NCBI RefSeq assembly: GCF_002019635.1 | Contig: NZ_KV917372.1 | Coordinates: 310,001-374,000 of the forward strand | Source: Metabacillus halosaccharovorans | Lineage (GTDB): Bacteria > Bacillota > Bacilli > Bacillales > Bacillaceae | Direction of reading: 5' to 3' | Length of the DNA: 64,000 bases | Part shown: piece after piece, positions 1 to 19,579 of the stretch | How positions within the stretch are numbered: the stretch's first letter is position 1 | Layout: each line of letters starts with the position of its first letter | The notes under the pieces: model-generated | What the model was told of the DNA's origin: nothing | Seen by the model: only the letters and a program-made list of their open reading frames with translations | Database searches by the model: none | Translations under genes and position numbers: made by a program

Positions 1-263
1 ATGAAATACGTAAAGCCGCGGGTATTGGTTTAACTCCACAGCTGCTTTTATATCGAATTGATAAAAATTCGACATTTGGAAATAAACAAAGTCAAAATAC
101 AAAAGAAGCTAATAGACGTTATGACTTAAATGCTTCAGAAGATCTGATTGGTGTTAGTTTATTTGTTCCGGGATATCGTACGGGCAGAAATTTAGCAACA
201 AAACTGTCTGTTCGCATCGAAAATCCAATGGGAGAGTCTGAAACGGAAGAAGGAAAAGAGTAA
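1..263 (+). CDS. C-terminal end of a probable Z1-domain protein (partial)
   Basis: An open frame enters from the left edge and stops at TAA 261-263. Only the last 86 or so residues are visible. They contain IRKAAGIGL, then LLLYRID, then DLIGVSLFVPGYRTG. From memory this layout resembles the extreme C-terminus of Z1-domain proteins, the helicase-like ATPases that accompany MORC-type ATPases in bacterial restriction islands. The call also rests on the neighbours: a GHKL ATPase and a PD-(D/E)XK nuclease follow directly. The stop overlaps the next ATG (TAATG), so the genes are translationally coupled. The ATPase motifs themselves lie outside the window, so this remains an inference. Confidence 0.5.
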   Translation, partial: EIRKAAGIGLTPQLLLYRIDKNSTFGNKQSQNTKEANRRYDLNASEDLIGVSLFVPGYRTGRNLATKLSVRIENPMGESETEEGKE

Positions 264-2272
264 TGCAAATCGAAATTGCAGAATTCGGGAAAATGTCCCA
301 ATCTGGCAGTTCATTATTAAAACTTATTCAGAATAACGATTTACCTATTCTTGATTTACTTGTACGTGAAGCTGTACAAAATAGTTTAGATGCCGGTATT
401 CGTGTAGAAGGCCTCAATTCTGTGTATGTGGACATTGGTATTAGGGATGTCAATGTCCAAAACTTTGCTAAGCATTTAGATGGAGTTACTGATTCGTTAA
501 ACGAAAAGTTTGGAGCCTCGCCACAAAAGGCGATTTATATTGAAGATGCCAACACAACAGGATTAACGGGTTCATTAGACTTTAAGAATTCACCAAACGG
601 GAATATTTTTAAACTAATTTATGGGATTAGTATGGCGCAGGATACACCAGGTGCAGGCGGGTCCTGGGGATTAGGGAAGACTGTCTATTTCCGTGTAGGC
701 ATTGGCTTGGTTGTTTACTATTCACGTATTTTAAACGAAGACGGTCAGTTCGAGCATCGCCTAGCTGTGACATTAGTAGAAAACGAGAAATTACCAAATC
801 CACTTATTCCAAAATCGGCTGGAAAAGTCCCGAGCGGAATTGCCTGGTGGGGGAAAAGTTTAGCACCAGATAGTAATGATACCATTCCAATTACAAATGA
901 ACCAATGATTCATGATATTTTACAATCCTTATCTATTGAGCCATTTGAGGGAGAGCGGTTAGGGACTAAAATCATTATTCCATTTATCGATGAACAGCAG
1001 CTGCTTATTAAGCACGATATCAGTCCAGATGAAAAAAAACCGTGGGAATCGAATGCAGTAGATTATTTACGTATTGCAATGCAACGTTGGTATGCACCGC
1101 GCTTGGCTAATAATAAGTATACCTATGGCAAATATTTAGATGGACATATTAACGGAATGAGACTGGATAAGGATGATTTTTCACCATTATTCCTTGAGCT
1201 GCAATTAATGTACAATGCAGCTGTGTTGGGTGGTGAATCAAATCGTTACTTTGTTAACGATATTCAAATTCGTAATTATTTTGAAAACAATAAAGTAAAT
1301 AACGCGGGGCGGGTTGCATATAAAAAGTTCACGAAGAAGCAGCTGGATATGCTGGCGCCACTAAATGGTCCGAGTCCGTTTACATGTGTGAATGAAAAAA
1401 ATCCGATGGGCGAGCAAAATGCACCATTGATGACTTATGCGAGAAGACCAGGAATGATTGTCAATTATGAAACAAATGGTGAATGGTGTAAAGGAATTAG
1501 TGCAACAGAAGGACACGAATTCTTAGTGGCTATTTTTGTACCAAATTCCAATACCAAGCTACTGAATCCAGATAATGATGTCGTCGACTTAGAAGCGTAT
1601 TTACGAAAAAGTGAGATGGCCGATCACACCTCATGGTCAGACATTATTATAAAAAGTAAGCCATTTGATATTGTTGAGAAAATTCGCTCACAGATTCGTC
1701 GTAAAATTAAAGCTTCATATGAAAATAAAGAAGAAGTGAAAGAAAAGCAAGGTATGAACACACTAGCACGCAATGTTGGAAAGCTGCTATTACCACCGAC
1801 AGGATTTGGTCGTCGTGCTTCCAGTCGCAATCGGGCTGGAGGTACTAAGCTTTCAACTAATAAAGGAAGTGGTGGTGGCAATAGTTTTACGCTTGTATCA
1901 CAAAAATATTTAGATACCGGTGACCTAGAAGTTCATTTTCAAATGAAACTAGCGAAAAATGTCACTGCTTTTACAATAGAGTTATTTATTTCTTCTGAAG
2001 GTGGAAAAATCTCAGCAACAGATTGGGAATCAGTAGATAGTGTTGGGACACCATTCCCTGCACAAATTACCGGCATTTCATTCCCAGGTAAGATTGGTCT
2101 ATTTGGTCGATCCACGGCTCTAAAAAGTGACAATAAAGTGTTGCATGCTGTACGTATTGAGAAAACAGATAAGGCTGTAGAATGTACATGCATTTTAGCA
2201 TTCACTTGCACGGACCCTCATGTACAAGTCGAAATGTCGATGAAGCCAGAAGGAAGTGTAGAAAATGCCTAA
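263..2272 (+). CDS. MORC/MutL-like GHKL-type ATPase, defence operon
   Basis: A 669-residue protein with a GHKL (Bergerat-fold) ATPase domain at its N-terminus. The N-box REAVQNSLDA lies at residues 35-44, an EDANTTGLTG motif at 94-103 replaces the usual DxGxG, and the glycine-rich ATP lid GAGGSWGLGK is at 130-139. The remaining 450 residues have no motif I know; a basic, Gly/Ser-rich linker lies near residues 510-540. Proteins of this type are predicted to be ATP-gated clamps acting with Z1 helicases and nucleases in restriction-like systems. The ATG overlaps the stop of the upstream gene, and the 3' end overlaps the next start by 8 bases, so it is part of one compact operon. Confidence 0.8.
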   Translation: MQIEIAEFGKMSQSGSSLLKLIQNNDLPILDLLVREAVQNSLDAGIRVEGLNSVYVDIGIRDVNVQNFAKHLDGVTDSLNEKFGASPQKAIYIEDANTTGLTGSLDFKNSPNGNIFKLIYGISMAQDTPGAGGSWGLGKTVYFRVGIGLVVYYSRILNEDGQFEHRLAVTLVENEKLPNPLIPKSAGKVPSGIAWWGKSLAPDSNDTIPITNEPMIHDILQSLSIEPFEGERLGTKIIIPFIDEQQLLIKHDISPDEKKPWESNAVDYLRIAMQRWYAPRLANNKYTYGKYLDGHINGMRLDKDDFSPLFLELQLMYNAAVLGGESNRYFVNDIQIRNYFENNKVNNAGRVAYKKFTKKQLDMLAPLNGPSPFTCVNEKNPMGEQNAPLMTYARRPGMIVNYETNGEWCKGISATEGHEFLVAIFVPNSNTKLLNPDNDVVDLEAYLRKSEMADHTSWSDIIIKSKPFDIVEKIRSQIRRKIKASYENKEEVKEKQGMNTLARNVGKLLLPPTGFGRRASSRNRAGGTKLSTNKGSGGGNSFTLVSQKYLDTGDLEVHFQMKLAKNVTAFTIELFISSEGGKISATDWESVDSVGTPFPAQITGISFPGKIGLFGRSTALKSDNKVLHAVRIEKTDKAVECTCILAFTCTDPHVQVEMSMKPEGSVENA

Positions 2273-3209
2273 TAAGGTTAGCATGAATCGACTTTTTGAT
2301 GAGGCGATCGAAGAGTTGTTAAATGTCTCTGTAGATTTGCAGTTCTTTTATAGAGATGATAATGGCTCAAAGAAATTCCTCAATCAAACCGAAGACTATG
2401 AGTATAAAACATTATTGAGTAATGACGATGATAGCTGGGACTATGTAGAAAAAGGTTTTGGGCTCTTAGGCATTGTAAAATTGGGTTTTCCGTCTAGCTT
2501 GTTTGGTCCTACTCAATTGGTCAATGCAGATGCAGAGTTAGGGTTAGCATTACAATGGATGTCTAAACAATCTTCGCAGCGAGGTGTAATTTCGCTTTCA
2601 ACCATTACAAGTACAACACCAAATGACGTGAGTATCCCTATTGATTATTATTTCCAAAAGGATAAATTATTTGGTGAAGTTCATATCTCACTTGTTGTTT
2701 TTTTGAAAAAGGCTAGTCGAAATAATATGCGAGGACAAGCACAACTACCAGGTACAATTTTAGGTAGGTTAGTAGAATGGCTTGTCATTTTAGATGGCTC
2801 TGGCTCGACGTTCCCGATCGTAATTGTAAATGAACCGGATAAACCTTTATGGTACGTCGATTTCAATTATTCGGAGCCACTAGTCGAGCCGTTTGATAAA
2901 GAATATATTGCAATCTATTTAAATAAAGCTCATGTTGCATACCAAGCAATACAAAAACCGAAAACCAAGCTAGATCAAGCATTGTATGTAGAATTTTTAG
3001 CGGGTGCATTGCAGCTTATATTGCAACACTTGATGGAATGTCCTGATTGGCAGGATATTCAGGACGGGAGAAACTGCGAAGAAGGTTCCATAGGGCAAGT
3101 CATACATTATTTTAAAACAACATTAAATTGGGATTTCGATACACCGGAAAAACTAGCGATGTCTCTACGTAACGATTTAGAAACAAGAGTAAAGACAGGT
3201 GATATGTAG
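2265..3209 (+). CDS. Uncharacterised protein of the Z1/MORC operon
   Basis: A 314-residue, mostly acidic, soluble protein that I do not recognise. No signal peptide, membrane segment, P-loop or nuclease motif is visible. The middle looks beta-rich (residues about 110-220) and the C-terminal third is helical with a Cys pair. The ATG lies 8 bases inside the end of the GHKL ATPase gene, and its TAG stop shares a base with the GTG of the next gene, so expression is coupled and stoichiometric. The position implies a structural or adaptor subunit of the defence complex. That role is inferred only from context. Confidence 0.75.
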   Translation: MPNKVSMNRLFDEAIEELLNVSVDLQFFYRDDNGSKKFLNQTEDYEYKTLLSNDDDSWDYVEKGFGLLGIVKLGFPSSLFGPTQLVNADAELGLALQWMSKQSSQRGVISLSTITSTTPNDVSIPIDYYFQKDKLFGEVHISLVVFLKKASRNNMRGQAQLPGTILGRLVEWLVILDGSGSTFPIVIVNEPDKPLWYVDFNYSEPLVEPFDKEYIAIYLNKAHVAYQAIQKPKTKLDQALYVEFLAGALQLILQHLMECPDWQDIQDGRNCEEGSIGQVIHYFKTTLNWDFDTPEKLAMSLRNDLETRVKTGDM

Positions 3210-3940
3210 TGTGGGAAAATGTAGTCTATACAAAAGCCCAAGCAAAATTTAAGTTTCAACAAATTGAGGCTGAACCAGAAAACTGTGCACCACGCCAAGT
3301 GAAAGCACCTTTTAATCAGCTGCGTAAAATCATGATGAACGAAAAGAATAAATTTTTAATGGATGAAATGAAGAAAATTAATTCCTATTCATTCGACTTG
3401 CATATGGGATTGATATTGTATCGTGTCCTTAAAGAAGAATACGGTTTTAACGAGAGACTAGCAGCTCAAGATGAGATGTGGCGTTACTTATCATTGGAAG
3501 TATTACCTGACTTAGTATACGATCGTTTTGGGATGAATGATCTGCGTTTTTATAAAGGAACACGTCGTATTTGGATGAAAAGTATTTGGTGGTATATTCA
3601 TCTTTCTTGGCAAGGATCAGAGGAAGAAACATTCGTCATTTTAAAAGATAATTCGTCAGATGAAATCCTTCAGTTACTCGACCGTTCAGGAAGTGGCGGT
3701 TATCGCTTGGAACTTACACGCGAACTGATGCGTCAATATAAAGAACATGCTAGTAGCAAAGTGCCACAATTATTTCGTCGTGTGTTAAAATTAAACACAG
3801 CACGGTTAAATATGATTGAACCTAGTTTAGTAGAAGGCGGCATAGAAACATATGTAACAGATTTATATAAGTATTTTTTAAATGATGTAGCAAAATTGGA
3901 GAAAAGAGTAGAAGTATATGGAAATAACACGAAAAATTAG
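3209..3940 (+). CDS. DUF6339-like protein of the Z1/MORC operon
   Basis: A 243-residue helical protein starting at GTG 3209, which shares a base with the upstream stop. It is rich in Trp, Tyr and Arg (for example RIWMKSIWWYIHLSW), a pattern I associate with the DUF6339 family found in similar bacterial operons; this family call is from memory and uncertain. No catalytic motif is evident. Its last 23 bases overlap the start of the nuclease gene downstream. The basic, aromatic surface suggests nucleic-acid or protein binding, but nothing in the sequence proves it. Confidence 0.65.
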   Translation: MWENVVYTKAQAKFKFQQIEAEPENCAPRQVKAPFNQLRKIMMNEKNKFLMDEMKKINSYSFDLHMGLILYRVLKEEYGFNERLAAQDEMWRYLSLEVLPDLVYDRFGMNDLRFYKGTRRIWMKSIWWYIHLSWQGSEEETFVILKDNSSDEILQLLDRSGSGGYRLELTRELMRQYKEHASSKVPQLFRRVLKLNTARLNMIEPSLVEGGIETYVTDLYKYFLNDVAKLEKRVEVYGNNTKN

Positions 3941-4820
3941 AGAAGGCTTCGCTTATTTTCGAACATCTGTAAAACGCTCTATTTCATTAAAAGAGCAGTT
4001 TTATTGGATTGTGAAAATAAATGGAATGCAAGGAGTTGCCATTGAAATCCCGCCAGAAAAACATGTAAATGAGCAGTTTGCCAACATCTATTACTTTACG
4101 AAAGTATATGTACTTGGTGGTCAAGAAAAGCATTTGTTAATACTCGTATCTGATCATCCGAAGTTATACGAAGATTTTGCGATCATTTGTGCCGGCTTTT
4201 TAGAGAGGGTACTCGATTCAGAATCGTATCAAGAAATCCAACAGAATCCGATTTCCTGGTGGCACGCAATGAAGGAACTGATGGGTAATGCCAATATTGA
4301 AAAAGCAGCTTATAGCGTACTGGCTGAAATGCTAAGCTACTATTATTTATTGAAAAAAGAAAAAGATGTTTCCTGGGTAGGCCCATTTGGTGGTTCAATT
4401 GATTTTAATAGTAATGATGGTGGCTATGAGGTGAAATCAACTATAGCTCGTTATGGATCACAAATTACTATTAATAGTGAATATCAGTTAAAAGCGAATT
4501 TTTTATTATTTTATCGTTTTGAGCCTGATATTTTTGGTATTTCAATTCAAGATATGATTAAAAAATTAGTAGAATGGGACGTAGAAGAAACGGAAATTGA
4601 ACGTGCGCTTGAAAATCTAGAATACCCAATCGGCAGTGAAATTCGTAAAAAGTCTTATCGCCTGGTTGAAGTGACCAAATATAAAATTGATGAAAACTTC
4701 CCAAAAATTTTACCAGAGAGTTTTATTGAAGGACATTTGCCTAAACATATTAGTGGACTCATATATAAATTGAATTTAGAGGGTTTAGATGGAGAAGTTA
4801 TTGATATAAAGGAATTCTAA
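3918..4820 (+). CDS. PD-(D/E)XK nuclease-like protein (DUF4420 type)
   Basis: A 300-residue protein with a restriction-endonuclease-like core. After WVGPFGGS comes Asp162 (IDF), then Glu171-Val-Lys173 (YEVKST), followed by a Gln in SEYQL near 190. An upstream Glu in VLAEML (137) fits the first helix. This D-ExK-Q layout is that of the PD-(D/E)XK proteins (DUF4420) that co-occur with Z1 and MORC-like ATPases in predicted restriction systems. It is the likely effector nuclease. The start overlaps the preceding gene by 23 bases, and a strong hairpin terminator follows the stop, so this is the last gene of the operon. Confidence 0.8.
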   Translation: MEITRKIREGFAYFRTSVKRSISLKEQFYWIVKINGMQGVAIEIPPEKHVNEQFANIYYFTKVYVLGGQEKHLLILVSDHPKLYEDFAIICAGFLERVLDSESYQEIQQNPISWWHAMKELMGNANIEKAAYSVLAEMLSYYYLLKKEKDVSWVGPFGGSIDFNSNDGGYEVKSTIARYGSQITINSEYQLKANFLLFYRFEPDIFGISIQDMIKKLVEWDVEETEIERALENLEYPIGSEIRKKSYRLVEVTKYKIDENFPKILPESFIEGHLPKHISGLIYKLNLEGLDGEVIDIKEF

Positions 4821-4825
4821 TATAT

Positions 4826-4862
4826 ATAGTCGATGTTTTCATATTTAACATCGACTATTTTT
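4826..4862 (+). terminator. Terminator of the Z1/MORC operon
   Basis: A perfect 12-bp stem (4826-4837 with 4847-4858), 9-base loop and following T-run lie six bases after the nuclease stop codon. Confidence 0.85.
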
Positions 4863-5091
4863 GATGCTTCATACAGAACTCTTAATAACATCACAAATAT
4901 ACTTCGTCCAGTTGAATTGCCAAATTTGCCTTCATATCCCTGTTAAGGCTACCAATCTTATACTTTGTTACTTTTAAAGATAAATAAAAGATTATAACAT
5001 AAGCTTGCAAAGTTAATAACTGAAGATTGGAAGGCATGTTTATGCCCTCCAGTAATGTTCGATTAATTAAGGAGTACTTCTCCATTATTCA

Positions 5092-6390
5092 TTATTTTTC
5101 ATAAGGGTTAGTAGAATCCGATTGTAACTGTTCACTGTTTGATAAATAAAACCTCAATAATTTTTCTTTAAAGCCACTTTGACTATTATTTGCATAAGAC
5201 TCCATAGCTTTGAAAACATCTATGATAAAACCATTGATTTGACCTAGATTAGATATCCCGTCTACAGCAGCAAATCCTAAGTATTCAATATCTTCATTAG
5301 TCTGGCCTGGAAAAAGAAATATATTTTCTATTTTATCTTCTTTATTTTTTATTAAAGTATGTCTATAAAAAAATTGTTTTACTAAATCACCCCAGCCAGG
5401 CAACTTAAGAGGTGCGTGTTTGATTCTGTAGTACTTTGCATCTAATATAAAAAGCCTGTTATTTATCCGAAACATAATATCAGGAATCTGTTCTGTTTTT
5501 GCCATTCGATTACCCACATTCCAATAAGGATTCGGGAGCTTTGGCATACTCTTATCGTTCACATCCGCAAATAACGAATAGCAAATCTTTTCCCAAACAG
5601 TGTGAAAATACGGTGTTACAATAGTTGTAATGCTGTCTTTTGACTGAGTATGACTTCCTATAATAAATTCTTTCAAATTTAGAAATAGATTCAATTTTCG
5701 TTCTTGAAATGTTCGTTGAGCTTCTAACTCCAAAATATACACAGCTGCATCTACATCACAGGGAAGATCATATTCCATCATATGTTCTCCATCATAATCA
5801 AATAACCAGCCATATAAATTTAAAGACTGTTCCACTGCATATTTATGAATTTGAGTAATTAAATGATCATACAGTATATGCTTTTTCGTGACTAGATCTA
5901 GATAGATAGGCCTTTGATTAGATATCACAGGGTTGATGCTCTTAATTGTCCTTGACCAATTGATATTTGTACTTTTATTTAAGTCGTAATCTTGGCGTTG
6001 AAAATTGATAGTACCGTTTTCAAAATAATCCCTGATTAACCAAAATGCAGCGGCAATATAAGCTGCGTTTTTTCCAGTACTTCCTAATAGAGAACTTTCA
6101 CTGGGATCCAATTTACTATTATGGCTATATTTAGTTAAAACATCTATTAAAAGTCGAATATGTTTTTTTAATGACTTTTCCTCTTGAGGTATGACATAGC
6201 CTTTTGGAAAGACGACAAATATGTAGTTTTGAAAAACAATAAATCCTGTGCATTTAAATAATAGAGTATTTTCATTTTTAACACATAAACCTCTAATAAA
6301 TAATTCATTAGGTATTTTTTCTTTAAAGCGGTCAAAAGGATATTCCTCTAATTCAACAAAGCACTTTTCATATAAATTAAGATCACTCAT
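5092..6390 (-). CDS. LlaJI/McrC-like restriction nuclease subunit
   Basis: A 432-residue protein with PD-(D/E)XK signature near its C-terminus: Pro303-Asp304 (IPDIMF) and Asp317-Ala-Lys319 (FILDAKYY), with Glu267 in VWEKIC upstream. The N-terminal half resembles the McrC/LlaJI fold (EYPFDRF, FVVFPKGY). LlaJI-family proteins (PF09563) are the nuclease partners of McrB-like motors in LlaJI and BsuMI restriction systems. The ATG overlaps the stop of the McrB-like gene by 8 bases, so both are translated from one mRNA. The cognate methyltransferases are divergently encoded. A plain type IV McrC is the alternative, but two adjacent C5 methyltransferases make a type II-like system more likely. Confidence 0.8.
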   Translation of the reverse strand: MSDLNLYEKCFVELEEYPFDRFKEKIPNELFIRGLCVKNENTLLFKCTGFIVFQNYIFVVFPKGYVIPQEEKSLKKHIRLLIDVLTKYSHNSKLDPSESSLLGSTGKNAAYIAAAFWLIRDYFENGTINFQRQDYDLNKSTNINWSRTIKSINPVISNQRPIYLDLVTKKHILYDHLITQIHKYAVEQSLNLYGWLFDYDGEHMMEYDLPCDVDAAVYILELEAQRTFQERKLNLFLNLKEFIIGSHTQSKDSITTIVTPYFHTVWEKICYSLFADVNDKSMPKLPNPYWNVGNRMAKTEQIPDIMFRINNRLFILDAKYYRIKHAPLKLPGWGDLVKQFFYRHTLIKNKEDKIENIFLFPGQTNEDIEYLGFAAVDGISNLGQINGFIIDVFKAMESYANNSQSGFKEKLLRFYLSNSEQLQSDSTNPYEK

Positions 6391-8122
6391 TTTTGTTATC
6401 TACACCTAAATCAAATTCAATCGTTTTTTCCGCAATCCTTTCATTCGGAGCATCTGGATGAATAGATTGATCATCTAATAAATCATTATCGGAACTTCTT
6501 AACGGTTCATTATATTCGTCTTTTATATATTGAAAATCCGTTTGAAACACGGGGATGCCTTCATTATATAACTTAACAAGTTGTGAGAACGTCTTTATTC
6601 CTTCTATAAAAATCTTTGAACGCTTTAGACGGGCAGCATCATCCCAAAGGTACATCAATAATTTTGACGTAATAATTTTGTTATTAGATGGTTCACCAGG
6701 TTTTAGGAAGTATGGCCCAATATGGCGATCTTCATTAATTGTGTGAGCAGCTAATAAATCATTTAATGATTCTATAAAATTGGACCATCTAACTAACTGT
6801 TTATTATAGGCAACATTTTCATCCTTATGAACAGCTTTTTTAGGATCTATCGGCATATATTCAAAAAACCAGCGTCTTTTAAAAGCGGAGTCCATTACAA
6901 ATACCCCTTGGTCAGCACTGTTCATTGTTGCAACTATATTCAAGTTAAGTGGTATTCTAATTTCTGTTTGATCGGTATCGATTACCCGTTTGTCTTTTAA
7001 ATATTTTATAATTTCAAGGTTAGAAACACCATATGTACTTTCTCCATTACTTTGTCGATCTAATAACTGAAATAAGTCACCAAATACAGAAGGAGCATTA
7101 GCACGATTAATTTCTTCTATAATTAATGTATACATTTGGGGATTAAGATCTTCTTTTGTTGAACGAAGTGCTTTTTCCAGTGATAGAGTAAAAGGGCCAG
7201 GTATAAAGTTATAATTTATATAGGGTTCTCCTTTATCGAAAGGCTCTCTTACTTCGGTTACAAACTTATATGTATCTGTATTAGTAGCTTCTACTTTATA
7301 GATTGGTTGAGGGCGGTAACTTCCTACAAAATCGTGATAAGTATACTCAGGATGAAAAGTTACCCGCACACTATTTTTGCCAGAATATCTTTTATCCAGT
7401 TCATGGCTTTTACCCGTACCAGGAGCACCGTAAATAATTAGATTTACTCCCGGTGTTGCAGGCTTTAATGAAACGTCATCTCCCCATTCTTCCGGAGATG
7501 ATAAGGTCGAGGTCTGCCTTGTAGGAGAAAAGTCATCATATGCTACAAAACTTCGTTTAAAAGTATCCTCAATTTCAGCATAATCATCGTTGTTTATAAC
7601 GATTAAATCATATGAAAACATATAACGATGTTTAAGAAAGATCAGAGTGTCCCCAATATCAAATAATCTCCTAAAGTCAGTAAATTCCTTTGAATCTGTA
7701 TACATCGATCCCATTTCTGATTGATTTCCACCCCGGCTCAAATAATGAGTCGTAAAGCAGGAGATATCTGTACTCTCCTCATGCGTTTTGTATTCGAGGT
7801 TTTCTTTTAATAAATGAATGTTAATTTTAACGCCATAACGTCTTTTAAACTCGTTCGAATTATATCCAGGTACTTTTTTTGCAATCACTTCAACAAAGTT
7901 ATCCAAGTAAGGAAAGAAATTAATTTCGTGTTCACTGCTAAATGCAATATGTTTTTGTTTTCCTCTATTTTTTGTTAACGTATTAGACTCAGCAAGTTTT
8001 TTTATAAATATCCCATCATAGCTATTACTGGTCGATAAGTTTAATCGATATGCAAGTGGATGATCTATTTTTTGAAAAAATCGATTTAGTATTTCCAGTG
8101 TTTCCTTAAAACTATAAGCCAT
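6383..8122 (-). CDS. McrB-like AAA+ restriction motor (LlaJI/BsuMI type)
   Basis: A 579-residue protein. Residues 1-220 form a non-ATPase domain of unknown specificity, perhaps the DNA-recognition part. The AAA+ module follows with Walker A GAPGTGKS (232-239), Walker B LIIEEINRAN near 335, and the sensor-like stretch VATMNSADQGVFVMDSAFKRR with arginine fingers. The EEINRAN and TMNSAD motifs are characteristic of McrB-family NTPases that drive the partner nuclease. A clear GGAGGATAG ribosome site precedes ATG 8122. A -10 box TATAAT (reverse of 8165-8170) precedes it and lies beside repeated operator-like motifs, suggesting control by the small RHH protein encoded divergently. Confidence 0.85.
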   Translation of the reverse strand: MAYSFKETLEILNRFFQKIDHPLAYRLNLSTSNSYDGIFIKKLAESNTLTKNRGKQKHIAFSSEHEINFFPYLDNFVEVIAKKVPGYNSNEFKRRYGVKINIHLLKENLEYKTHEESTDISCFTTHYLSRGGNQSEMGSMYTDSKEFTDFRRLFDIGDTLIFLKHRYMFSYDLIVINNDDYAEIEDTFKRSFVAYDDFSPTRQTSTLSSPEEWGDDVSLKPATPGVNLIIYGAPGTGKSHELDKRYSGKNSVRVTFHPEYTYHDFVGSYRPQPIYKVEATNTDTYKFVTEVREPFDKGEPYINYNFIPGPFTLSLEKALRSTKEDLNPQMYTLIIEEINRANAPSVFGDLFQLLDRQSNGESTYGVSNLEIIKYLKDKRVIDTDQTEIRIPLNLNIVATMNSADQGVFVMDSAFKRRWFFEYMPIDPKKAVHKDENVAYNKQLVRWSNFIESLNDLLAAHTINEDRHIGPYFLKPGEPSNNKIITSKLLMYLWDDAARLKRSKIFIEGIKTFSQLVKLYNEGIPVFQTDFQYIKDEYNEPLRSSDNDLLDDQSIHPDAPNERIAEKTIEFDLGVDNKNE

Positions 8123-8164
8123 AATTACTATCCTCCAGTTTATAATCTTGTTTGTACTAGATTA

Positions 8165-8209
8165 ATTATACCAAAAGTACTGTAAAAATTAACTTTTACC
8201 TGTAAAAAT
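8165..8209 (-). promoter_or_regulatory. Promoter and repeated operator-like sites, restriction genes
   Basis: The divergent gap contains CTGTAAAAAT twice (8180-8189 and 8200-8209), spaced exactly 20 bp, and a near-palindrome TTTTACCTGTAAAA at 8194-8207. They sit immediately upstream of a -10 box TATAAT reading leftward (8165-8170). Repeats about two helical turns apart suit a ribbon-helix-helix repressor such as the one encoded at 8299. Confidence 0.5.
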
Positions 8210-8233
8210 GGGATTCTGAAATTTACTATTCAA

Positions 8234-8262
8234 TTTACACCCTGATCTAAATGTGATATAGT
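8234..8262 (+). promoter_or_regulatory. Sigma-A promoter of the methyltransferase operon
   Basis: TTTACA (8234-8239) and TATAGT (8257-8262) are separated by 17 bp, 37 bases before the TTG start of the RHH gene. Confidence 0.7.
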
Positions 8263-8298
8263 AGAACATATTTTCGTAAGGAAAGGGAGAAACATAAG

Positions 8299-8484
8299 TT
8301 GAGCTCAAACTTAGTTGGAAGGCCAAGAGGGAAAAAAAAGACTGCTAAAATAGAAATTACAATTGAGCCAGAAATTAAAGAAGCATTTATGAAATCTTTG
8401 CATGAGAACAATCAATATGCATCTATTGTTTTACGTGAATGGATTATTGATTATATTAATGGACATGGAGTTGGAAAAAAATGA
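8299..8484 (+). CDS. Ribbon-helix-helix-like small regulator of the R-M locus
   Basis: A 61-residue basic protein. A basic arm (GRPRGKKKTAK) leads into a strand (IEITIEPEIKEAF) and two helices, the order of a MetJ/Arc ribbon-helix-helix DNA-binding protein. The TTG start is backed by a GGAAAGGGAG ribosome site. The last codons overlap the ATG of methyltransferase 1 (ATGA). Its place at the head of the methyltransferase operon, next to repeats in the divergent promoter, suggests it times methylation and restriction as a controller protein does. That function is inferred; binding is not shown. Confidence 0.7.
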   Translation: MSSNLVGRPRGKKKTAKIEITIEPEIKEAFMKSLHENNQYASIVLREWIIDYINGHGVGKK

Positions 8485-9458
8485 ACGTTGTATCACTATT
8501 TAGTGGGTGTGGTGGATTAGACCTCGGATTTATCCAAGCAGGATTTAATATTATTTGGGCAAATGACATTGATAAATATGCCGTACAATCATATAGGCAT
8601 AATATTGGAGATCATATCATTGAAGAAGATTTAACAAAAATTCCTGTTAGCCAAGTGCCGGAACATGATGTATTAATCGGTGGTTTTCCATGTCAACCAT
8701 TTAGTATGATGGGAGAACAGAAAGGCTTTACAGATACTAGAGGGACATTATTTTTCAACATTGAACAGATTATTTTACACCACAATCCAAAAGTAGTTGT
8801 TTTAGAAAATGTTCGTAATCTGGTGAATCACGATAATGGAAGAACGTATAAGGTGATTAAAGAACATCTTGATTTAGCTGGCTATGAGGTATTTGATAAA
8901 GTATTAAATAGTGTAGACTATGGGGTGCCGCAAACCCGTAACAGAATTTTTATTGTATGTTTTAAAAAAGACTTAAATATTACTAAATTTGATTTTCCAA
9001 AAGCTGTTCCGTTAGAGAAGACGCTGCAAAGTATTTTAGAAACGAATGTCCCGGCAAAATACTATTTATCTCAGAAAATACTTCCAACGATCATGGCAAG
9101 TGGGACAAAGACATATAAGGCAAAATCGGAAATTGATCTACAGATCGCCAGACCGTTATGTGCTACGATGGCTAAGATGCATCGTGCCAGTCAAGACAAT
9201 TATGTTACACAGCCGAGTGATATAGCAGAAAAAGAAGGAAAAACAAATATTAGAAGATTAACACCCAGGGAATGTGCCCGTCTTCAAGGATTTCCTGAAG
9301 AACCTAATTACGAGATTATAGTGTCTGATTCTCAAGCCTATAAACAATTTGGGAATGCAGTTACCGTAAATGTAGCTAAATATGTTGCTAAAGCAATTTT
9401 TGACATAGTACACAGCAAAGAGGTTGAGACATGTGAATTACAATATCAAGGATCTTAA
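8481..9458 (+). CDS. DNA (cytosine-5)-methyltransferase 1
   Basis: A 325-residue C5 methyltransferase with all main motifs: SAM-binding motif I FSGCGG (7-12), catalytic Pro-Cys-Gln with Cys71 in GGFPCQPFS, ENV motif VI (109-111), QTRNRIF motif VIII, and the motif IX/X region ending YKQFGNAVTVNV. A short target-recognition region lies between motifs VIII and IX, about residues 175-255. It probably protects one strand or one site of the host DNA from the McrB/LlaJI-like nuclease. LlaJI and BsuMI also use two C5 methyltransferases. The start overlaps the RHH gene stop; its 3' end overlaps the next gene. Confidence 0.93.
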   Translation: MNVVSLFSGCGGLDLGFIQAGFNIIWANDIDKYAVQSYRHNIGDHIIEEDLTKIPVSQVPEHDVLIGGFPCQPFSMMGEQKGFTDTRGTLFFNIEQIILHHNPKVVVLENVRNLVNHDNGRTYKVIKEHLDLAGYEVFDKVLNSVDYGVPQTRNRIFIVCFKKDLNITKFDFPKAVPLEKTLQSILETNVPAKYYLSQKILPTIMASGTKTYKAKSEIDLQIARPLCATMAKMHRASQDNYVTQPSDIAEKEGKTNIRRLTPRECARLQGFPEEPNYEIIVSDSQAYKQFGNAVTVNVAKYVAKAIFDIVHSKEVETCELQYQGS

Positions 9459-10926
9459 TGATAAAAAAGTAAAAAAGTCATTTCTTAATGAGATCAAAGA
9501 ATTAATAAATACGTTAATAAATATGGATGAAATAGAAAAAATTCAGGATGATCAAAAAAGTATACAGCAAAAACTAATTGAAGTTGGAGTAATCTCCAAG
9601 CAGGAAGAATTAGAAGCTGTTTTGTCTCTGGTAGATAAAGAGTTTCATATTCCCTATGATGAATTTGTTTCGTTAATAAGTAAAATCCAGCATGATGAAA
9701 CGAAGAACTGCTGTGTTTATAAATTTTGTAATTACTGTATTGACAATATATCATGTATAGAAGAAAAAGATGATAAGCCAGTGATTGTAGATTTATTCTG
9801 TGGTGCTGGAGGAATGTCATTAGGGTTTAAACAAGCAGGTTTTAAAATTGCTTTTGCAAATGATATTGAACAATCCTGCATCGAAACGTATTCTTTTAAT
9901 CATCCTGAACTACCTAAAGAATATATTTATCATGAAGATATTAATAATATAATTGAAGAAATTGATGAAAGAATCAGATATTCAGAAGTAGATGTTGTAA
10001 TAGGAGGTCCTCCTTGTCAAGGTTTTAGCAACGCAAATAGACAAAGAATTATTGATGATCCTCGTAACAAGCTTTATAAGAGCTTCGTAAAGATCGTGGA
10101 GAAGTTACAGCCGAAATTTTTTGTTATGGAAAATGTACAAGGTATGCTTTCGGTTGCTTCACAGGTACAGGAAGACTTTGAGGCTATTGGATATAAACTT
10201 CATTGTGAAGTATTAAATGCATTAGACTTTGGAGTTCCCCAAAATAGAAAACGAATCATCTTTATCGGAAACAGGCTTGGTTTAGACAACGCATCCATCT
10301 TTGCGGAAATAAATCTGCAGAATGCATACTTAAACAGACAATTTACTCTTAGAGATGCTATCGAGAAATTACCTAAACTAGAGGCTTTACGTGTAAAGAA
10401 TGCAACAAATATAGAAAGCGAAGAAAGCGGCAGAGTGATTGCAAAATATCCTTCATTGCCATTAAACCATTTCTTATTGCTAATCAACAGTGGATCATCT
10501 CCTGAAATTCTGTACAACCATAAAGCGAGGTATAATAACGACCGAGATATTGAAATATTTGGAAGGATGAATCAAGGAGATAAATCGGATGATCCGAAAA
10601 TTGCCGATATTATGCCTTATCAAAGTAGAAATGGTATTTTTAAAGATAAATATTATAAGCTCATATATGATGCACCATGCAAAACAATTACAGCTCATAT
10701 GAAGTTTGATTGTAATATGTATATCCATCCAACGCAGGCAAGAGGATTAACTCCAAGGGAAGCAGCAAGGGTCCAGACATTTCCGGATGACTATTTCTTT
10801 AAAGGTTCCTATACAAAAACTTATATGCAGGTCGGTAATGCAGTTCCTCCACTAATGAGCAGAGGAATTGCTGAAGCGGTATTAAAAAGTTTAAAGGAAA
10901 CTGAGCTCAAAAGTACAAACAATTAA
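9433..10926 (+). CDS. DNA (cytosine-5)-methyltransferase 2 with N-terminal extension
   Basis: A 497-residue C5 methyltransferase if started at GTG 9433, which has AAGAGG nine bases upstream; a TTG at 9424 in the same frame would touch that ribosome site and is less likely. A helical, Cys-containing extension of about 115 residues precedes motif I FCGAGG (122-127). The catalytic Cys is in GGPPCQGFS (about 185), followed by MENVQGM, QNRKRII and the C-terminal GNAVPP motif. A larger target-recognition region (about 250-420) than in methyltransferase 1 suggests it reads the other strand of an asymmetric site, or a different site. It overlaps the upstream gene by 26 bases. Confidence 0.92.
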   Translation: MNYNIKDLNDKKVKKSFLNEIKELINTLINMDEIEKIQDDQKSIQQKLIEVGVISKQEELEAVLSLVDKEFHIPYDEFVSLISKIQHDETKNCCVYKFCNYCIDNISCIEEKDDKPVIVDLFCGAGGMSLGFKQAGFKIAFANDIEQSCIETYSFNHPELPKEYIYHEDINNIIEEIDERIRYSEVDVVIGGPPCQGFSNANRQRIIDDPRNKLYKSFVKIVEKLQPKFFVMENVQGMLSVASQVQEDFEAIGYKLHCEVLNALDFGVPQNRKRIIFIGNRLGLDNASIFAEINLQNAYLNRQFTLRDAIEKLPKLEALRVKNATNIESEESGRVIAKYPSLPLNHFLLLINSGSSPEILYNHKARYNNDRDIEIFGRMNQGDKSDDPKIADIMPYQSRNGIFKDKYYKLIYDAPCKTITAHMKFDCNMYIHPTQARGLTPREAARVQTFPDDYFFKGSYTKTYMQVGNAVPPLMSRGIAEAVLKSLKETELKSTNN

Positions 10927-11032
10927 ATATATAATTATTATTAAGTAGGGTAGAAAAAGTCGGAGTGGATGACTTTTTGAAGACCCTTTTAACATAGACA
11001 TTATAAAAACGTGAATAAAAAATAATCTGATT

Positions 11033-11070
11033 ATAGCTCAAGAGACGATTAAACTCTTGGGCTATATTTT
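11033..11070 (+). terminator. Terminator after methyltransferase 2
   Basis: A 12-bp stem with one T-G wobble (11033-11044 with 11054-11065), 9-base loop and ATATTTT tail, 110 bases after the methyltransferase stop. No gene is seen in the 10927-11102 gap. Confidence 0.65.
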
Positions 11071-11102
11071 GTAACCGACAATGAATAAATAGTGGGGTAA
11101 CT

Positions 11103-11933
11103 ATGAAACTTTTATCAAACTTATTTAAAAAGAAGGATCAAGAAAATGAACAAAAATCACAAATAAAAGCTGAAACTCCAAAAATAAAACACAATGAAAA
11201 GGTCGCAAACAGAAAAGGAGAGCTTGGAGAATACAAAATCGATATACAATTAGCACAACTTCCTAAAGAGTATAGGCATTTATCTGATATCATGATAAAA
11301 AACGAAAAAGCTAAATCAGGCTTCTCACAGATTGATCATATTGTCATTACGCCATATGGAATCTTTGTAATCGAAACAAAAAATTATCAAGGTACCATAT
11401 ATGGTGGTAAAGACAGAATAACCTGGTCAGTAAATGGAAAGTTTAAGATGATGAATCCATTTATTCAAAATTATGGACATATTCAAGCGATAAAAAATCA
11501 TATTGAAGAGAAATATCATCACTCATTTATTTCAATGGTGTCATTCACTAAACGGTGCACATTCAAGATTGACGAGTTAGATTTTAGAAAAATGAGTTCT
11601 GATGAGTTGATTGTATATGATGTTGAATTGTCGGAGTATATACATAGGAAAGTATCAGTTAATAAGATACATAATAAAGAGCCAATTTTAAAAGAAGATG
11701 AGATAAAAAGAATCCATTCAATATTAGTTGAAGCTAACATAGATGATCATTCTATTCGAGAGCAGCATGTTCAATCCCTAAAGTTAGAGGGGGAGGTAAA
11801 TAGTCAAAATCAACAAGCAAAGTGCTTTGTATGTAATAAGACTGTCTCAGAAAAGGTCAAGTCATTTTGTTTGTCCAGTAAGGAGTTTAATGGGAAGATA
11901 TATTGTTTTGAACATCAAAAGAGTTTAGGATAG
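11103..11933 (+). CDS. NERD-domain nuclease-related protein with C-terminal zinc motif
   Basis: A 276-residue protein. A charged N-terminal tail precedes a NERD domain (about 35-150) with GELGEY (39-44), Asp78 in QIDHIVIT and Glu91-Thr-Lys93 in VIETKNY, the PD-(D/E)XK-like active-site layout of this family. The C-terminus carries CFVCNK and later C and CFEH groups, likely a small zinc-binding site. NERD proteins are thought to process nucleic acid; their biological role is mostly unknown. It stands alone between two terminators at the edge of the restriction island, so it may be a further defence gene or a passenger. Confidence 0.75.
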   Translation: MKLLSNLFKKKDQENEQKSQIKAETPKIKHNEKVANRKGELGEYKIDIQLAQLPKEYRHLSDIMIKNEKAKSGFSQIDHIVITPYGIFVIETKNYQGTIYGGKDRITWSVNGKFKMMNPFIQNYGHIQAIKNHIEEKYHHSFISMVSFTKRCTFKIDELDFRKMSSDELIVYDVELSEYIHRKVSVNKIHNKEPILKEDEIKRIHSILVEANIDDHSIREQHVQSLKLEGEVNSQNQQAKCFVCNKTVSEKVKSFCLSSKEFNGKIYCFEHQKSLG

Positions 11934-11966
11934 TAGGTTACTTTTAGACAATTAAAATCCTTTTTT

Positions 11967-12007
11967 GATAACCCCATCTAATGAAAATAGAAGGGGTTAT
12001 CTTTTTT
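11967..12007 (+). terminator. Terminator after the NERD gene
   Basis: A perfect 9-bp stem (GATAACCCC 11967-11975 with GGGGTTATC 11993-12001) followed by six T. The T-run before the stem on the other side makes it potentially bidirectional. Confidence 0.85.
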
Positions 12008-12086
12008 GCACTTAACAAAATAATTGTTTTTAACATTTCGAGGTTGATTTTTACCTATTTAATAGTAAAATGAACCTATAACTTAT

Positions 12087-12175
12087 AGCCTATTAGAAAA
12101 CGGCAAACCTATCGAAAGGTAGGGACGCAAAACTACGGACCTAAAGCAAATGCTATGGTGGCCGAGTCGCCTAAA
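12087..12175 (+). promoter_or_regulatory. Cyclic-di-GMP-I (GEMM) riboswitch aptamer
   Basis: The stretch carries the conserved GEMM-I elements in order: GGCAAACC (12102-12109), a GAAA tetraloop with closing stem, GGGACGCAAA (12122-12131), a CCTAAAG receptor (about 12140-12146) and GGCCGAGTCGCC closing the second helix. It lies directly upstream of a terminator and a small gene. The 3' strand CGCCTAAA (12168-12175) is exactly complementary to TTTAGGCG (12210-12217) in the terminator. Aptamer folding and terminator disruption are therefore mutually exclusive. Ligand-bound aptamer would favour termination, an OFF switch, though direction is inferred from base pairing alone. Confidence 0.9.
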
Positions 12176-12199
12176 AGATGGACGTCAATACATAATGTT

Positions 12200-12227
12200 G
12201 ATCCGCCTATTTAGGCGGGTCTTTTTT
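12200..12227 (+). terminator. Riboswitch expression-platform terminator
   Basis: A 9-bp stem with one wobble (12200-12208 with 12213-12221) and six T follow the c-di-GMP aptamer. The 3' arm can instead pair with the end of the aptamer (12168-12175), as expected for a riboswitch-controlled attenuator. Confidence 0.85.
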
Positions 12228-12259
12228 AGTTTGTAAAAATATAAAGAGGAGGAATATAT

Positions 12260-13007
12260 ATGGGGTTTTTAAGAGATGTAGGGAAATTCGCTGGAAAAGC
12301 AACAGGAACGGTTATTGGTGGGGCTGTTAATGTTGTTGGAGATGTAACAGGCAGCAAATTTATTAAGGAAGTTGGGGATGGAGTTAAAAGGCATCTGAAT
12401 TTGCTGGGGATACAGTAGGTCAAATCGCAGATGGAGCTTGGAATACTGCATCAGGTATGATCCAGGACGAAAAATCTAAAATTGATCAAGGATTAAATGA
12501 TATGGGTGATTCAGTAGGTAGAACGGCAAAGGGTGTATATCATACTGCCAAAAATACTTATCATAGTGGTAAATCTACATATGAGGGATTTAGAGATGGT
12601 GATGATACAAAAATTAAACAGGGTTTACGAGATATTGGCAAAACAGTAGCAATAGGTACACTTGCTGTTGGAGTTATTGATTTAGTTGATGGAGTTGACG
12701 GTGGTGACCCATCTACAAATAATCAGAATATGGCTGAAGGCGGAACAGAGGGAACATCCAATGTCATCAGGTTCAACCACATGTGGCACAAACAGATGTG
12801 GCAACTTCTGATGATACGACAGAACAACCAGGAACACATCATGTAAAACCTCACTGGGTAGAAGGCCATTGGCGTGATGGTGTATGGATTGACGGCTATT
12901 GGAGAGATGGAGATGGAAATACTGCCGTCAACTTAACTGAAGCAGATGGTGGAGGTTATTTACGTTCTGATGCTGATGGAAATCCTAATAATAATTTAAA
13001 ATCATAG
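12260..13007 (+). pseudogene. Riboswitch-controlled gene broken by two frameshifts
   Basis: An AGAGGAGG ribosome site precedes ATG 12260. The first frame encodes a glycine-rich start (MGFLRDVGKFAGKATGTVIGG) to about 12395. The meaning then continues in the -1 frame (ASEFAGDTVGQIADGAWNTA) to about 12765, then again in the -1 frame (VQPHVAQTDVA) to the stop at 13005-13007. Restored, it would be a roughly 248-residue Gly/Ala-rich protein with repeated VEGHWRDGVW-IDGYWRDG motifs near the C-terminus. The codon sense is kept across both joins, so either the breaks are recent, or they are sequencing errors near short homopolymers. I do not recognise the family; c-di-GMP control suggests a surface or lifestyle role. 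Confidence 0.7.
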
Positions 13008-13014
13008 TTTAATT

Positions 13015-13045
13015 GCGAGGCTAAATGTTAGTCTCGTATTTTTTT
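13015..13045 (+). terminator. Terminator after the riboswitch-controlled gene
   Basis: A 10-bp stem with wobbles (13015-13024 with 13028-13037) and seven T follow the stop by seven bases. Confidence 0.75.
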
Positions 13046-13160
13046 GTCTTATGTAGAGGTAAAGACTAATAAAATATGATGTTAAACATAGTACTATACT
13101 CTCTATACTTTCAAGTTTTCGACCATGAAATATTTCCTGTAGACAAAGGAGAAAGTGAGC

Positions 13161-13326
13161 ATATAGTTTTGATTTCATTTACATTTATATGAAATGATCC
13201 ACTCAAATGGATAAATATGTTATATGTAATAAGTGTGACATTTTGATCAAAGACGATTATAAAACAATACTAACTCACTAGCCATGATTATACATAAAAA
13301 ACCAGGAAGTGAGGGATGATGGCGAC
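13161..13326 (+). repeat. LXG upstream repeat, copy 1
   Basis: About 165 bp upstream of the first LXG toxin, nearly identical to 16087-16253 and clearly similar to 35801-35965. All three contain GATTTCATTTAC or a close variant, AATGGATAAATA, AAGTGTGACATTT, TAACTCACTAG and GGAAGTGAGGGATGATG. It must include the toxin promoter, untranslated leader and ribosome site. Confidence 0.8.
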
Positions 13327-15177
13327 TTGAAAGTATTAGAGACAAAGACATTAATAGAATCAATGGAAGATAGAGCGAAAGTGTACACAGATTTTCGCGA
13401 TAAAATTGATACATTAAAAAAGGCATTTACTGATATTACTCAGTTAGATGACGACTTGCAAGGTAAAGGAGCAGACTCCATAAAAGGGTTTTATCAGGCG
13501 CAAATAGATGTGGCAGATGGCCTGCTGCGTCTTGTTGACATGCAAATTGCTTTTCTAAATGGTGTATCAGGAGCTATAGCGGATATTGATTTATCCGGTG
13601 ACACAGTGGTAGACGTCAACTTTCTAGAAACTGATCTATCTATCCATGCTTCGAACCATATCGCAATGGTGGAGAGCCAACGGGAAGATCTACAGAAAAT
13701 CATTGATGGAATTGACGATATTGTTAATCTCGAAGCATTTTCAGCTGATGATTTCAATACTGCAATGGATGATGCTAAGAAAAAGAGAGAAAACACCATC
13801 AAGGACGTTGATGCATTGGATCAGCAATTACTAGAGGAATACAAGTTATCAGAAAATGCAGAATTCCATATTGGAGCTCTTTTTCAACAACTGTTAGAAG
13901 CAACAGCACAAGGCAACACCATTTCTCCAATCAACTTTAATGCGCAAGCATATAAAGCGAGTGAAGCCTATCAACTTTCAGATGAGGTTCAGCAATACGC
14001 AGATGACTACCTTTCATTTAAAGAGGATCAGGAAAAAATTAGAGAAGAGTTAAAAAAGGCCGAAGAATTAGAAAACCGTCCGATTTACGAAAAAGCATGG
14101 GATACTGTCAAAACGTTCACTGGAGAAGCAACAGGATATTACGATTTTCTCCGTGCAAAAGATGGTGTTGACCCCGTAACAGGAGAAGAACTAACAGACG
14201 GCCAACGAGTAGCCGCTGGTGCCATGGCCACCGCAGGATTCATCCCGGTTGTAGGATGGGGAGGAAGACTCTTCAAAGGCGGAAGTGCAATCTACAAAAC
14301 TGCCAAAGGAATGAATACGGCCGAACAAGCACTAAGTGTTTACAAATCAAGCAGCACATTCTCAAATCTCCAAAAAGCAGAACTAGGAATCTACGGCCTC
14401 GCTTCCGCGAACGGACTTAGTGAATATATCACAGGGAAAGATATGTTTGGAAATGAGCTAACAGACGTTCAAAGACAATCTAGTTTATTTAATAGTATCC
14501 TAGGAGCTTCTTTAGTCGCTTCACCATTCGTGCCAGTACTCGTGAAAAATGGTAAACTAGTAAAAGAGGAAACACTTAACCAAATGCATAAGCTAGCGAC
14601 AAATACGAAAGCTAGTGCGCGGTTTGTCTATGACGAAGTAAGAGGTGGCATGCAGGTTCTTTTAGGTAATCAGAATATGAATTTTGCGTTGGCTGGGGCA
14701 GACGGCGTAAAACCATTACTGTCCAACGTAATGAACTCAAAGGAAGTTAGAAATAGAATTGAAGAGACTATTTCGAGGTTTTCTTTTGCTAAGGATACAA
14801 GTAAATATAATAGAAGGACCATGAAACACATTTATCATGGTGAGATCAATAAACGCGGTAAAGCAGTTGGTTATCATCATGAGAGTATGATGGGTGGAAA
14901 GATTATTCCAGGAACGGAGACAAAGCCAGATAAAAATGGAGTCTATAGAGCTAAGGTAGAGATTGAAGGAGTCAGAAAAAAAGCTACTTCAAGTTTTTTC
15001 CCTAAAGAATGGGATCGTGTCCAAGTTTTAAAAGCGATCGAAGAGGCTTTTAATAATAAAAGACTTATTGGCGATAATAAATACTCTGGGAAAAGTGAAT
15101 CTGGTCTTATAATTGAAATGTATTTAAATAAGGATGGTTCAATTGCAACTGCATATCCAATTTATAAAGGAGATTAA
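13327..15177 (+). CDS. LXG-domain polymorphic toxin with EndoU nuclease C-terminus
   Basis: A 616-residue toxin if started at TTG 13327, which gives MKVLETKTLIES, the usual LXG N-terminus; GTG 13309 in the same frame would add six residues. Residues 1-210 form the helical LXG domain that targets type VII secretion, followed by a coiled linker, then a pre-toxin TG-type segment (GYYDFLRAKDGVDPVTGEEL, hydrophobic GAMATAGFIPVVGWGG) near 275-320. The last 130 residues match bacterial EndoU nucleases: HIYHGEIN, GYHHESMMGG, SSFFPKEW and the closing TAYPIY. The immunity gene follows after two bases. The N-terminal 500 residues are almost identical to the toxin at 16254. Confidence 0.88.
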   Translation: MKVLETKTLIESMEDRAKVYTDFRDKIDTLKKAFTDITQLDDDLQGKGADSIKGFYQAQIDVADGLLRLVDMQIAFLNGVSGAIADIDLSGDTVVDVNFLETDLSIHASNHIAMVESQREDLQKIIDGIDDIVNLEAFSADDFNTAMDDAKKKRENTIKDVDALDQQLLEEYKLSENAEFHIGALFQQLLEATAQGNTISPINFNAQAYKASEAYQLSDEVQQYADDYLSFKEDQEKIREELKKAEELENRPIYEKAWDTVKTFTGEATGYYDFLRAKDGVDPVTGEELTDGQRVAAGAMATAGFIPVVGWGGRLFKGGSAIYKTAKGMNTAEQALSVYKSSSTFSNLQKAELGIYGLASANGLSEYITGKDMFGNELTDVQRQSSLFNSILGASLVASPFVPVLVKNGKLVKEETLNQMHKLATNTKASARFVYDEVRGGMQVLLGNQNMNFALAGADGVKPLLSNVMNSKEVRNRIEETISRFSFAKDTSKYNRRTMKHIYHGEINKRGKAVGYHHESMMGGKIIPGTETKPDKNGVYRAKVEIEGVRKKATSSFFPKEWDRVQVLKAIEEAFNNKRLIGDNKYSGKSESGLIIEMYLNKDGSIATAYPIYKGD

Positions 15178-15179
15178 GA

Positions 15180-15515
15180 ATGAAGTATCATTATAATTTT
15201 TATAGAGACCATCATAATGTTCTAAGAGTAAAATTGCCAGATAGTATAAAATTATTTGCTGATTTTATAGAAGATATTAGTACACAACAAGAATTAGATG
15301 AGTATGTAGAGGATATTAAAAAAGTTACCAATGGCTTATATGAAGACTTTGAAATTCAATTAAATGCTGCGAGCGTATCAATAAATAAAGATGTGACAAT
15401 TGTAGAAAATAACTTTCGGATTGAAGAACCTTATGAAAATACTATTGAAACTGAGCAATTTATAGAGTTGTTGTTAATTTGGAGAGAGAAGATTTCAGAA
15501 AGATTTAAAGATTAA
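15180..15515 (+). CDS. Probable immunity protein for the EndoU toxin
   Basis: A 111-residue acidic cytoplasmic protein that begins two bases after the EndoU toxin stop; AAAGGAG inside the toxin end serves as ribosome site. It has no known catalytic motif; the central VSINKDVTIVENNF and the C-terminal FIELLLIWREKI resemble small proteins that I recall next to EndoU toxins. Its job would be to bind and block the toxin in the producer and its kin. The assignment rests on position, size and acidity. Confidence 0.75.
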   Translation: MKYHYNFYRDHHNVLRVKLPDSIKLFADFIEDISTQQELDEYVEDIKKVTNGLYEDFEIQLNAASVSINKDVTIVENNFRIEEPYENTIETEQFIELLLIWREKISERFKD

Positions 15516-15604
15516 AGTTTTATTTGATCTAATTAGAATTATATGTTTGCAAAAAAATTATCTTTAAGGATTATGCCTTCTAGGTTTTTTCTTGAATTTT
15601 TAGC

Positions 15605-15885
15605 CCAATAATAGCAGATACTTATTTGAAGGATGGAGATATCATAGTCACAGCTTTTACTGATCTTAGCTGAACATCAATTATTTTCTCCATAAAAGGC
15701 ATCTACACAAAAGTTGGTTGACTAGTGACACATGAAGCCGTTATCTCAAGTGTATTTGGCTTACCAAGCAGTTACAGGATTGGAAAATACTAATAAAATG
15801 ATAATTAATGTCAACGAATTCGTGTTAGTGGAACAGCAGGGATATAGAATTAATGTAAATGTTGATTATCTATTAGTTTAAATAA
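15605..15885 (+). pseudogene. Decayed 3' end of a rifampin phosphotransferase gene
   Basis: This stretch aligns by eye with the last 250 bases of the intact gene at 37037-39640. Shared stretches include GGATGGAGATATC/GATGGAGATATC, TTTCTCCATAAAAGGC/TTTCCATAAAAGGC, ACACATGAAGCCGTTATC/ACACATGGAGCCGTTATC and GGCTTACC. Several stops and indels interrupt the frame, so it is dead. The matching terminator also survives downstream (15947-15980). It records a former copy of that gene, now wedged between two LXG toxins. Confidence 0.75.
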
Positions 15886-15946
15886 AATATAGTCAGTGTT
15901 ACTTGAGCGGTGCATACTTACAAAGCTTAATATGAAATTTACATGG

Positions 15947-15980
15947 AAAAGGTATGAGGAGTAATCCTATACCTTTTTTT
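15947..15980 (+). terminator. Terminator left from the rph-like relic
   Basis: AAAAGGTAT-G-AGGA pairs with TCCTATACCTTTT and is followed by a long T-run. It is nearly identical to the terminator after the intact gene (39658-39695). Confidence 0.75.
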
Positions 15981-16086
15981 ATTTGAATGGAATGCTATTA
16001 AGATATGAATTATCTTTAGTACTTTATCCTCTGTTTTATTGAGGTTTATATATGATTTATTTCCTGTTTACATTTAACTTACTAAG

Positions 16087-16253
16087 TATATAGTTTTGAT
16101 TTCATTTACATTTATATGAAATGATCCACTAAAATGGATAAATATGTTATATGTAATAAGTGTGACATTTCGATCAAGGACGAATATAAAACGAGACTAA
16201 CTCACTAGTCATGATTATACATAAAAAACCAGGAAGTGAGGGATGATGGCGAT
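16087..16253 (+). repeat. LXG upstream repeat, copy 2
   Basis: About 167 bp nearly identical to 13161-13326, directly upstream of the second LXG toxin. It must hold the promoter and ribosome site. See copies 1 and 3. Confidence 0.8.
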
Positions 16254-18197: not shown

Positions 18198-18210
18198 GGT
18201 GAAACTAAAC

Positions 18211-18633
18211 ATGAATAAAAAACTTGAAGAGATGATTAATGAATATATAGAAAAAGGGGACTTTATTGGAGAGGTTTCTGATGATCATATAAAAAAAGCA
18301 GAAAGAACCTTAGAGGTTAGTTTTCCAACAGAATATAAAGACTTCGTTAAAAAATATGGTTCTGGAGGAATTTGCGGGGTTGACATAAATGGAGTTGAGG
18401 GAGCAGATTACGCATCTGTTGTTGAAAGTACAGAACGGTATAGAAAATTAGGTTTACCAAATAAATATATTGTTTTAGAGAGTGTCGATGAATTTGTTTA
18501 TTGCTTAAATACTTTAGAGAAATATAATGTTGTTCGATGGGATGATATAAGTAAACGAGAAGTAACTAGATACACAACTTTTATTGAATATTTACAAGAT
18601 AACTTTCAAGAGGCAATTGATAACTGGGATTAA
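18211..18633 (+). CDS. SUKH (SMI1/KNR4) immunity protein for the LHH toxin
   Basis: A 140-residue protein starting at ATG 18211, with GAGGTGA eight bases upstream; that ribosome site overlaps the toxin stop. The N-terminal pattern IKKAERTLEVSFPTEYKDFV followed by KKYGSGG is the SMI1/KNR4 (SUKH-1) hallmark, and the C-terminal FIEYLQDNFQEAI helix fits. SUKH proteins are the commonest immunity partners of nuclease toxins. A hairpin terminator follows. Confidence 0.85.
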   Translation: MNKKLEEMINEYIEKGDFIGEVSDDHIKKAERTLEVSFPTEYKDFVKKYGSGGICGVDINGVEGADYASVVESTERYRKLGLPNKYIVLESVDEFVYCLNTLEKYNVVRWDDISKREVTRYTTFIEYLQDNFQEAIDNWD

Positions 18634-18695
18634 TAAAACCCTTATTATTGAAGTGTTACTATTTGTAGTCTAATACACTAAAATATTCAAAGCAT

Positions 18696-18736
18696 AAAGC
18701 ACTAAAATGCATTTTAAGCATTAGGTGCTTTTTGTA
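18696..18736 (+). terminator. Hairpin terminator after first SUKH gene
   Basis: AAAGCAC (18696-18702) pairs with GTGCTTT (18725-18731), with an inner AATGC/GCATT stem, followed by T. Its layout resembles the hairpins at 19324 and 21302. Confidence 0.7.
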
Positions 18737-18793
18737 TTTTTGTATAAATTAGACAGGCTATACTCGTTATAATAATATTTAATGGAGTAGGAA

Positions 18794-19252
18794 GTGATTT
18801 TATTGGAAACAAAATTTGAATTTTCATTTGAACCAATTTTCGATAATGATATTGAGGCTTTCGAGAATGAATATAACGTAAATCTCTCGGAAGATTATAA
18901 GAAGTTTTTGCTACACAAAAATGGTGGTAAACCTGAGAAAAGAAGATTTAAAACTGCTGATGGAACTATTACATCCTCAGTAATGTTGTTTCTACCAATT
19001 TCAGAAGAAACCGATTCAAATTTAAAGAACTTTTATGAGAAGTATACTTTAAGCAAGATAGTTCCTCCTAATTTAATTCCAATTGGTTTAGATCCTGCTG
19101 ATAGCTTGATTTGTTTGAAAATTGGTGAGAAGGATCAAGTGTATTTTTGTGATATGGATTACTTTGAAGAAGATAATGAGTTAAAAGATGAGTACATTAA
19201 GTTAATTTCGGAAAATTTCACATCTTTTCTCAATAACTTATATGAAGCATAA
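18794..19252 (+). CDS. Orphan SUKH-family immunity protein
   Basis: A 152-residue acidic protein with the SUKH pattern: IEAFENEYNVNLSEDYKKFLLHKNGG, later IPIGLDPADSLICLKIG and QVYFCDMD. The start is GTG 18794 behind GGAG, or TTG 18803 behind AGGAAG; the sequence does not decide. There is no adjacent toxin; it is flanked by similar hairpins on both sides. It is probably an accumulated immunity gene that protects against toxins of neighbours, as is common downstream of LXG loci. Confidence 0.82.
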   Translation: MILLETKFEFSFEPIFDNDIEAFENEYNVNLSEDYKKFLLHKNGGKPEKRRFKTADGTITSSVMLFLPISEETDSNLKNFYEKYTLSKIVPPNLIPIGLDPADSLICLKIGEKDQVYFCDMDYFEEDNELKDEYIKLISENFTSFLNNLYEA

Positions 19253-19323
19253 ATATGAATATAAACATGTTGGTTACAAGATTAGTAATAACATTAAATT
19301 AATTAAATTATCTAACGATAAAG

Positions 19324-19357
19324 CACTTGATTGCCTTTTAGGCAACAGGTGTTTTAT
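19324..19357 (+). terminator. Hairpin terminator after orphan SUKH gene
   Basis: CACTTG-A-TTGCC pairs with GGCAA-CAGGTG, followed by TTTT. It resembles 21302-21337 almost base for base. Confidence 0.7.
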
Positions 19358-19579
19358 TGTATTATGAGAAATTTAATTTTTTAAATGACTTTGATGTTAC
19401 TTTCTAATATTCAGAGCTCAGAATGATTGTATCAGCATGTGTATAGGAAAGATAAGAAAGCAAATAGACAGAAAATATTAGGCTTTTGTCCTATAATTGA
19501 TAAAACATTGAGGGAACATTTCCCTCAATACGTTATTAAACAATTATTTAATAATACATTAATTCACTATCCCTTAGGT

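Follow-up and report, generated by a model that had tools for sequence, protein, structure and literature searches.

The 64,000-nucleotide window analysed here (Metabacillus halosaccharovorans, contig NZ_KV917372.1, positions 310,001 to 374,000) begins with a five-gene operon, which probably encodes an anti-phage, DNA-cutting system. It joins a GHKL ATPase and a DUF4420 nuclease to two proteins of 314 and 243 residues, termed U314 and U243, which are a recurring pair accompanying one particular ATPase type. The coordinates bear out the initial annotation's description of five genes that overlap or share end bases, and its interpretation is borne out in part:

1..263, plus strand: gene 1, matching Pfam PF10593 (9.3e-53) and PADLOC MzaC (9.3e-53)
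263..2272, plus strand: GHKL ATPase, 669 residues, of predicted paraMORC2 type, a diverged PDC-M33A
2265..3209, plus strand: family U314, 314-residue protein, a diverged PDC-M33B relative
3209..3940, plus strand: U243, 243-residue protein with a GTG start, a diverged DUF6339/PDC-M33C relative
3918..4820, plus strand: DUF4420 PD-(D/E)XK nuclease, 300 residues, an MzaD relative

The ATPase and the nuclease

The ATP-binding motifs of the GHKL protein are intact, its N-box, G1 and G2 being invariant in all 13 aligned sequences, and the nuclease core (D162, E171-x-K173) is invariant in 11 of 11, in keeping with the N-box and D-ExK core recognized at the outset. The ATPase had also been called MORC-like, of which the GHKL part stands and the MORC part does not. 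Iyer et al. 2008 (PMC2292703) define MORC proteins by a GhXhhpXXRhl motif in the S5 domain; the hallmark of paraMORC2 proteins is an ExxxH that is conserved towards the C-terminal end of that domain. Nine proteins were scanned with a pattern that is our own rendering of the published MORC motif; it was present in both MZA-like GHKL proteins included (L021 and L026), and absent from the window GHKL and from those of loci L029, L033, L064, L055, L049 and L047. The ExxxH lies at residues 451-455; neither E451 nor H455 varies in any of the 13 aligned sequences, 9 of which read SExADHTSW at this site. Because the MORC motif is absent and the ExxxH invariant, the window GHKL is, as judged by motif, a paraMORC2 protein. 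It directly matches the PDC-M33A model of PADLOC (1.8e-8), and profile-profile comparison with the PDC-M33A set gives an E of 1.1e-22, which drops to 4.4e-24 when two Rhizobiaceae sequences are included.

The DUF4420 protein matches Pfam PF14390 at 1.1e-16 (61.4 bits, cut-off 27). At L067, an NgoFVII-type PLD+B3 nuclease (7321-8328) occupies its place in an otherwise complete operon. The two small proteins, for which co-occurrence with both the GHKL and DUF4420 genes had been proposed, recur as a pair with the ATPase. At L033 the operon is followed by a 705-residue protein with a Swt1-like HEPN domain (3846-5963; 7.4e-23), perhaps an added RNase effector.

The U314 and U243 proteins

The initial annotation described these two proteins as uncharacterised subunits; distant relatives have now been found for both. 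U243 has no direct Pfam or PADLOC match, but its family profile picks up (8.3e-6) the protein that is annotated as DUF6339 in L034, and profile-profile comparison with the PDC-M33C set gives 1.5e-6 (2.5e-8 with the Rhizobiaceae sequences added).

The relationship of U314, which has no match in Pfam, PADLOC or NCBIfam, to PDC-M33B is weaker and emerged as sequences were added. An earlier comparison, of 9 with 6 sequences, fell short of significance (E 0.092); the E value fell to 3.1e-3 with 13 sequences and to 7.9e-4 with 15, including two from Rhizobiaceae. The 15-sequence score of 34.2 compares with control maxima of 18.0 for 60 column shuffles and 15.3 for reversed profiles. The L055 protein counted as U314 was missed at E 0.01 by the first-pass U314 profile, and also by PDC-M33B, and was recruited only in a later round of iterated search. 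The Rhizobiaceae third-position protein was not matched by the U314 profile and has no clear tie to PDC-M33B (E 0.082), being linked only via L055 (tblastn 3e-5) and U314 (E 0.0017). An origin of U314 or U243 as a split or shrunken form of AIPR was considered and rejected (profile-profile E 0.23 and 0.55, respectively).

Methylases and neighbouring genes

The window version of the operon differs from most of its distant relatives in having no DNA methylase inside it. Six of the eight loci outside the window's clade (L029, L033, L064, L065, L066 and L068) carry an orthologous methylase between U243 and DUF4420, these six being mutually 53-84% identical; this suggests that, in the family at large, methylation serves for self-protection. 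At L055, no methylase was found by profile in its 15 kb. None of the six clade members (the window and L005-L009) has an in-operon methylase.

Cytosine methylases do occur in all six clade genomes (two matches in the window genome, one to three in the others), and in every genome at least one shares a contig with the operon and lies no more than about 17 kb from it. The two in the window genome adjoin LlaJI-like genes, 3.7-4.6 kb downstream of the operon; such methylases accompany LlaJI-like genes in L005 and L007 as well, and one in the genome of L009 has AIPR and DUF4420 genes of a different system nearby. Mutual identity is 57-90% among the methylases of L005, L006, L007 and L009, and a methylase may therefore be common to this part of the clade. 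The window's DCM1, however, shares only 28-40% identity with the near-operon methylases of the five other clade genomes, and DCM2 shares 30-33%, whereas the operon proteins are 75-89% identical across the clade. The six genomes were also searched for three adenine-methylase families: PF01555 was found in one, PF02384 in five, always on contigs other than the operon's, and PF02086 in one, as a weak overlap with DCM2. No Vsr match was found in the window's genome; at L007, a Vsr mismatch endonuclease (10762-11199; 6.3e-25) directly follows the operon on the other strand.

Both the missing in-operon methylase and the divergence of DCM1 would be expected if the operon acted by abortive infection and not by DNA restriction, the GHKL trio sensing infection and releasing DUF4420 against the DNA of both host and phage. 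In favour of this, the GHKL-PD-(D/E)XK fusion VcSduA is described in PMC12137116 as protective and as requiring both active sites. The orthologous methylases of the outside loci argue against this mechanism, which is compatible with other readings but seems rather unlikely.

The downstream genes form a separate set:

5092-10926, opposite strand to the operon: LlaJI-like set, with a nuclease (Pfam RE_LlaJI 2e-55), a McrB-like AAA protein and two cytosine methylases

This set also contains a small open reading frame with weak ribbon-helix-helix similarity. It was rejected as part of the operon because of its strand and its absence from the equivalent place in L005-L009. Profile searches also place LlaJI- or McrB-like genes no more than about 20 kb from the operon at L005, L007, L029, L067 and L068. 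Further along (13309-18197), two tandem open reading frames of 622 and 653 residues, with near-identical N-terminal parts and differing C-termini, are followed by small genes; inspection by eye suggests polymorphic toxins of the LXG type and their immunity genes.

Comparison with known systems

The MZA system (mzaABCDE) reportedly goes back to Gao et al. 2020. It is described as validated in PMC9523054. Gene 1 and the DUF4420 protein resemble MzaC and MzaD, but score below the NCBIfam MZA cut-offs (226.7 bits against 1500 and 49 bits against 420). The window GHKL belongs to a different family, having no MzaB match (profile-profile E 0.15, on which membership was rejected), whereas all five MZA-like GHKLs tested match MzaB at 7.7e-70 or better, and it lacks the MORC motif present in both of those scanned. 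No AIPR (MzaE) was detected by profile in L002 or in window positions 1-20000, and the operon has two extra proteins. That it is a true, if diverged, MZA system is thus very improbable.

The CglI and NgoAVII ATP-dependent restriction enzymes differ in their nuclease, which in CglI is of the PLD type and in the window PD-(D/E)XK, and the parts of the CglI literature consulted describe no GHKL, U314 or U243 partner. All three proteins of PDC-M33, a PADLOC phage defence candidate whose name was not met in the literature searched, have counterparts in the window in the same order. Profile-profile comparison recovers, in order, a homologue for each of A, B and C, weakly for B, placing the operon in the wider PDC-M33 superfamily. 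The window is a diverged version: PADLOC's own models match only A (1.8e-8), not B or C, as also at L029 and L033, and the seven loci with good PDC-M33B matches lack DUF4420. A similar arrangement is the third operon type of Iyer et al. 2008 (PMC2292703), which combines an SFII helicase (DThhQXuRhFG motif), an RE-fold protein and a GHKL; paraMORCs substitute for MORC in such operons, and a looping mechanism is proposed. The text consulted names no counterpart of U314 or U243, although the undefined domains X1-X3 of its figure 2 legend may correspond to them.
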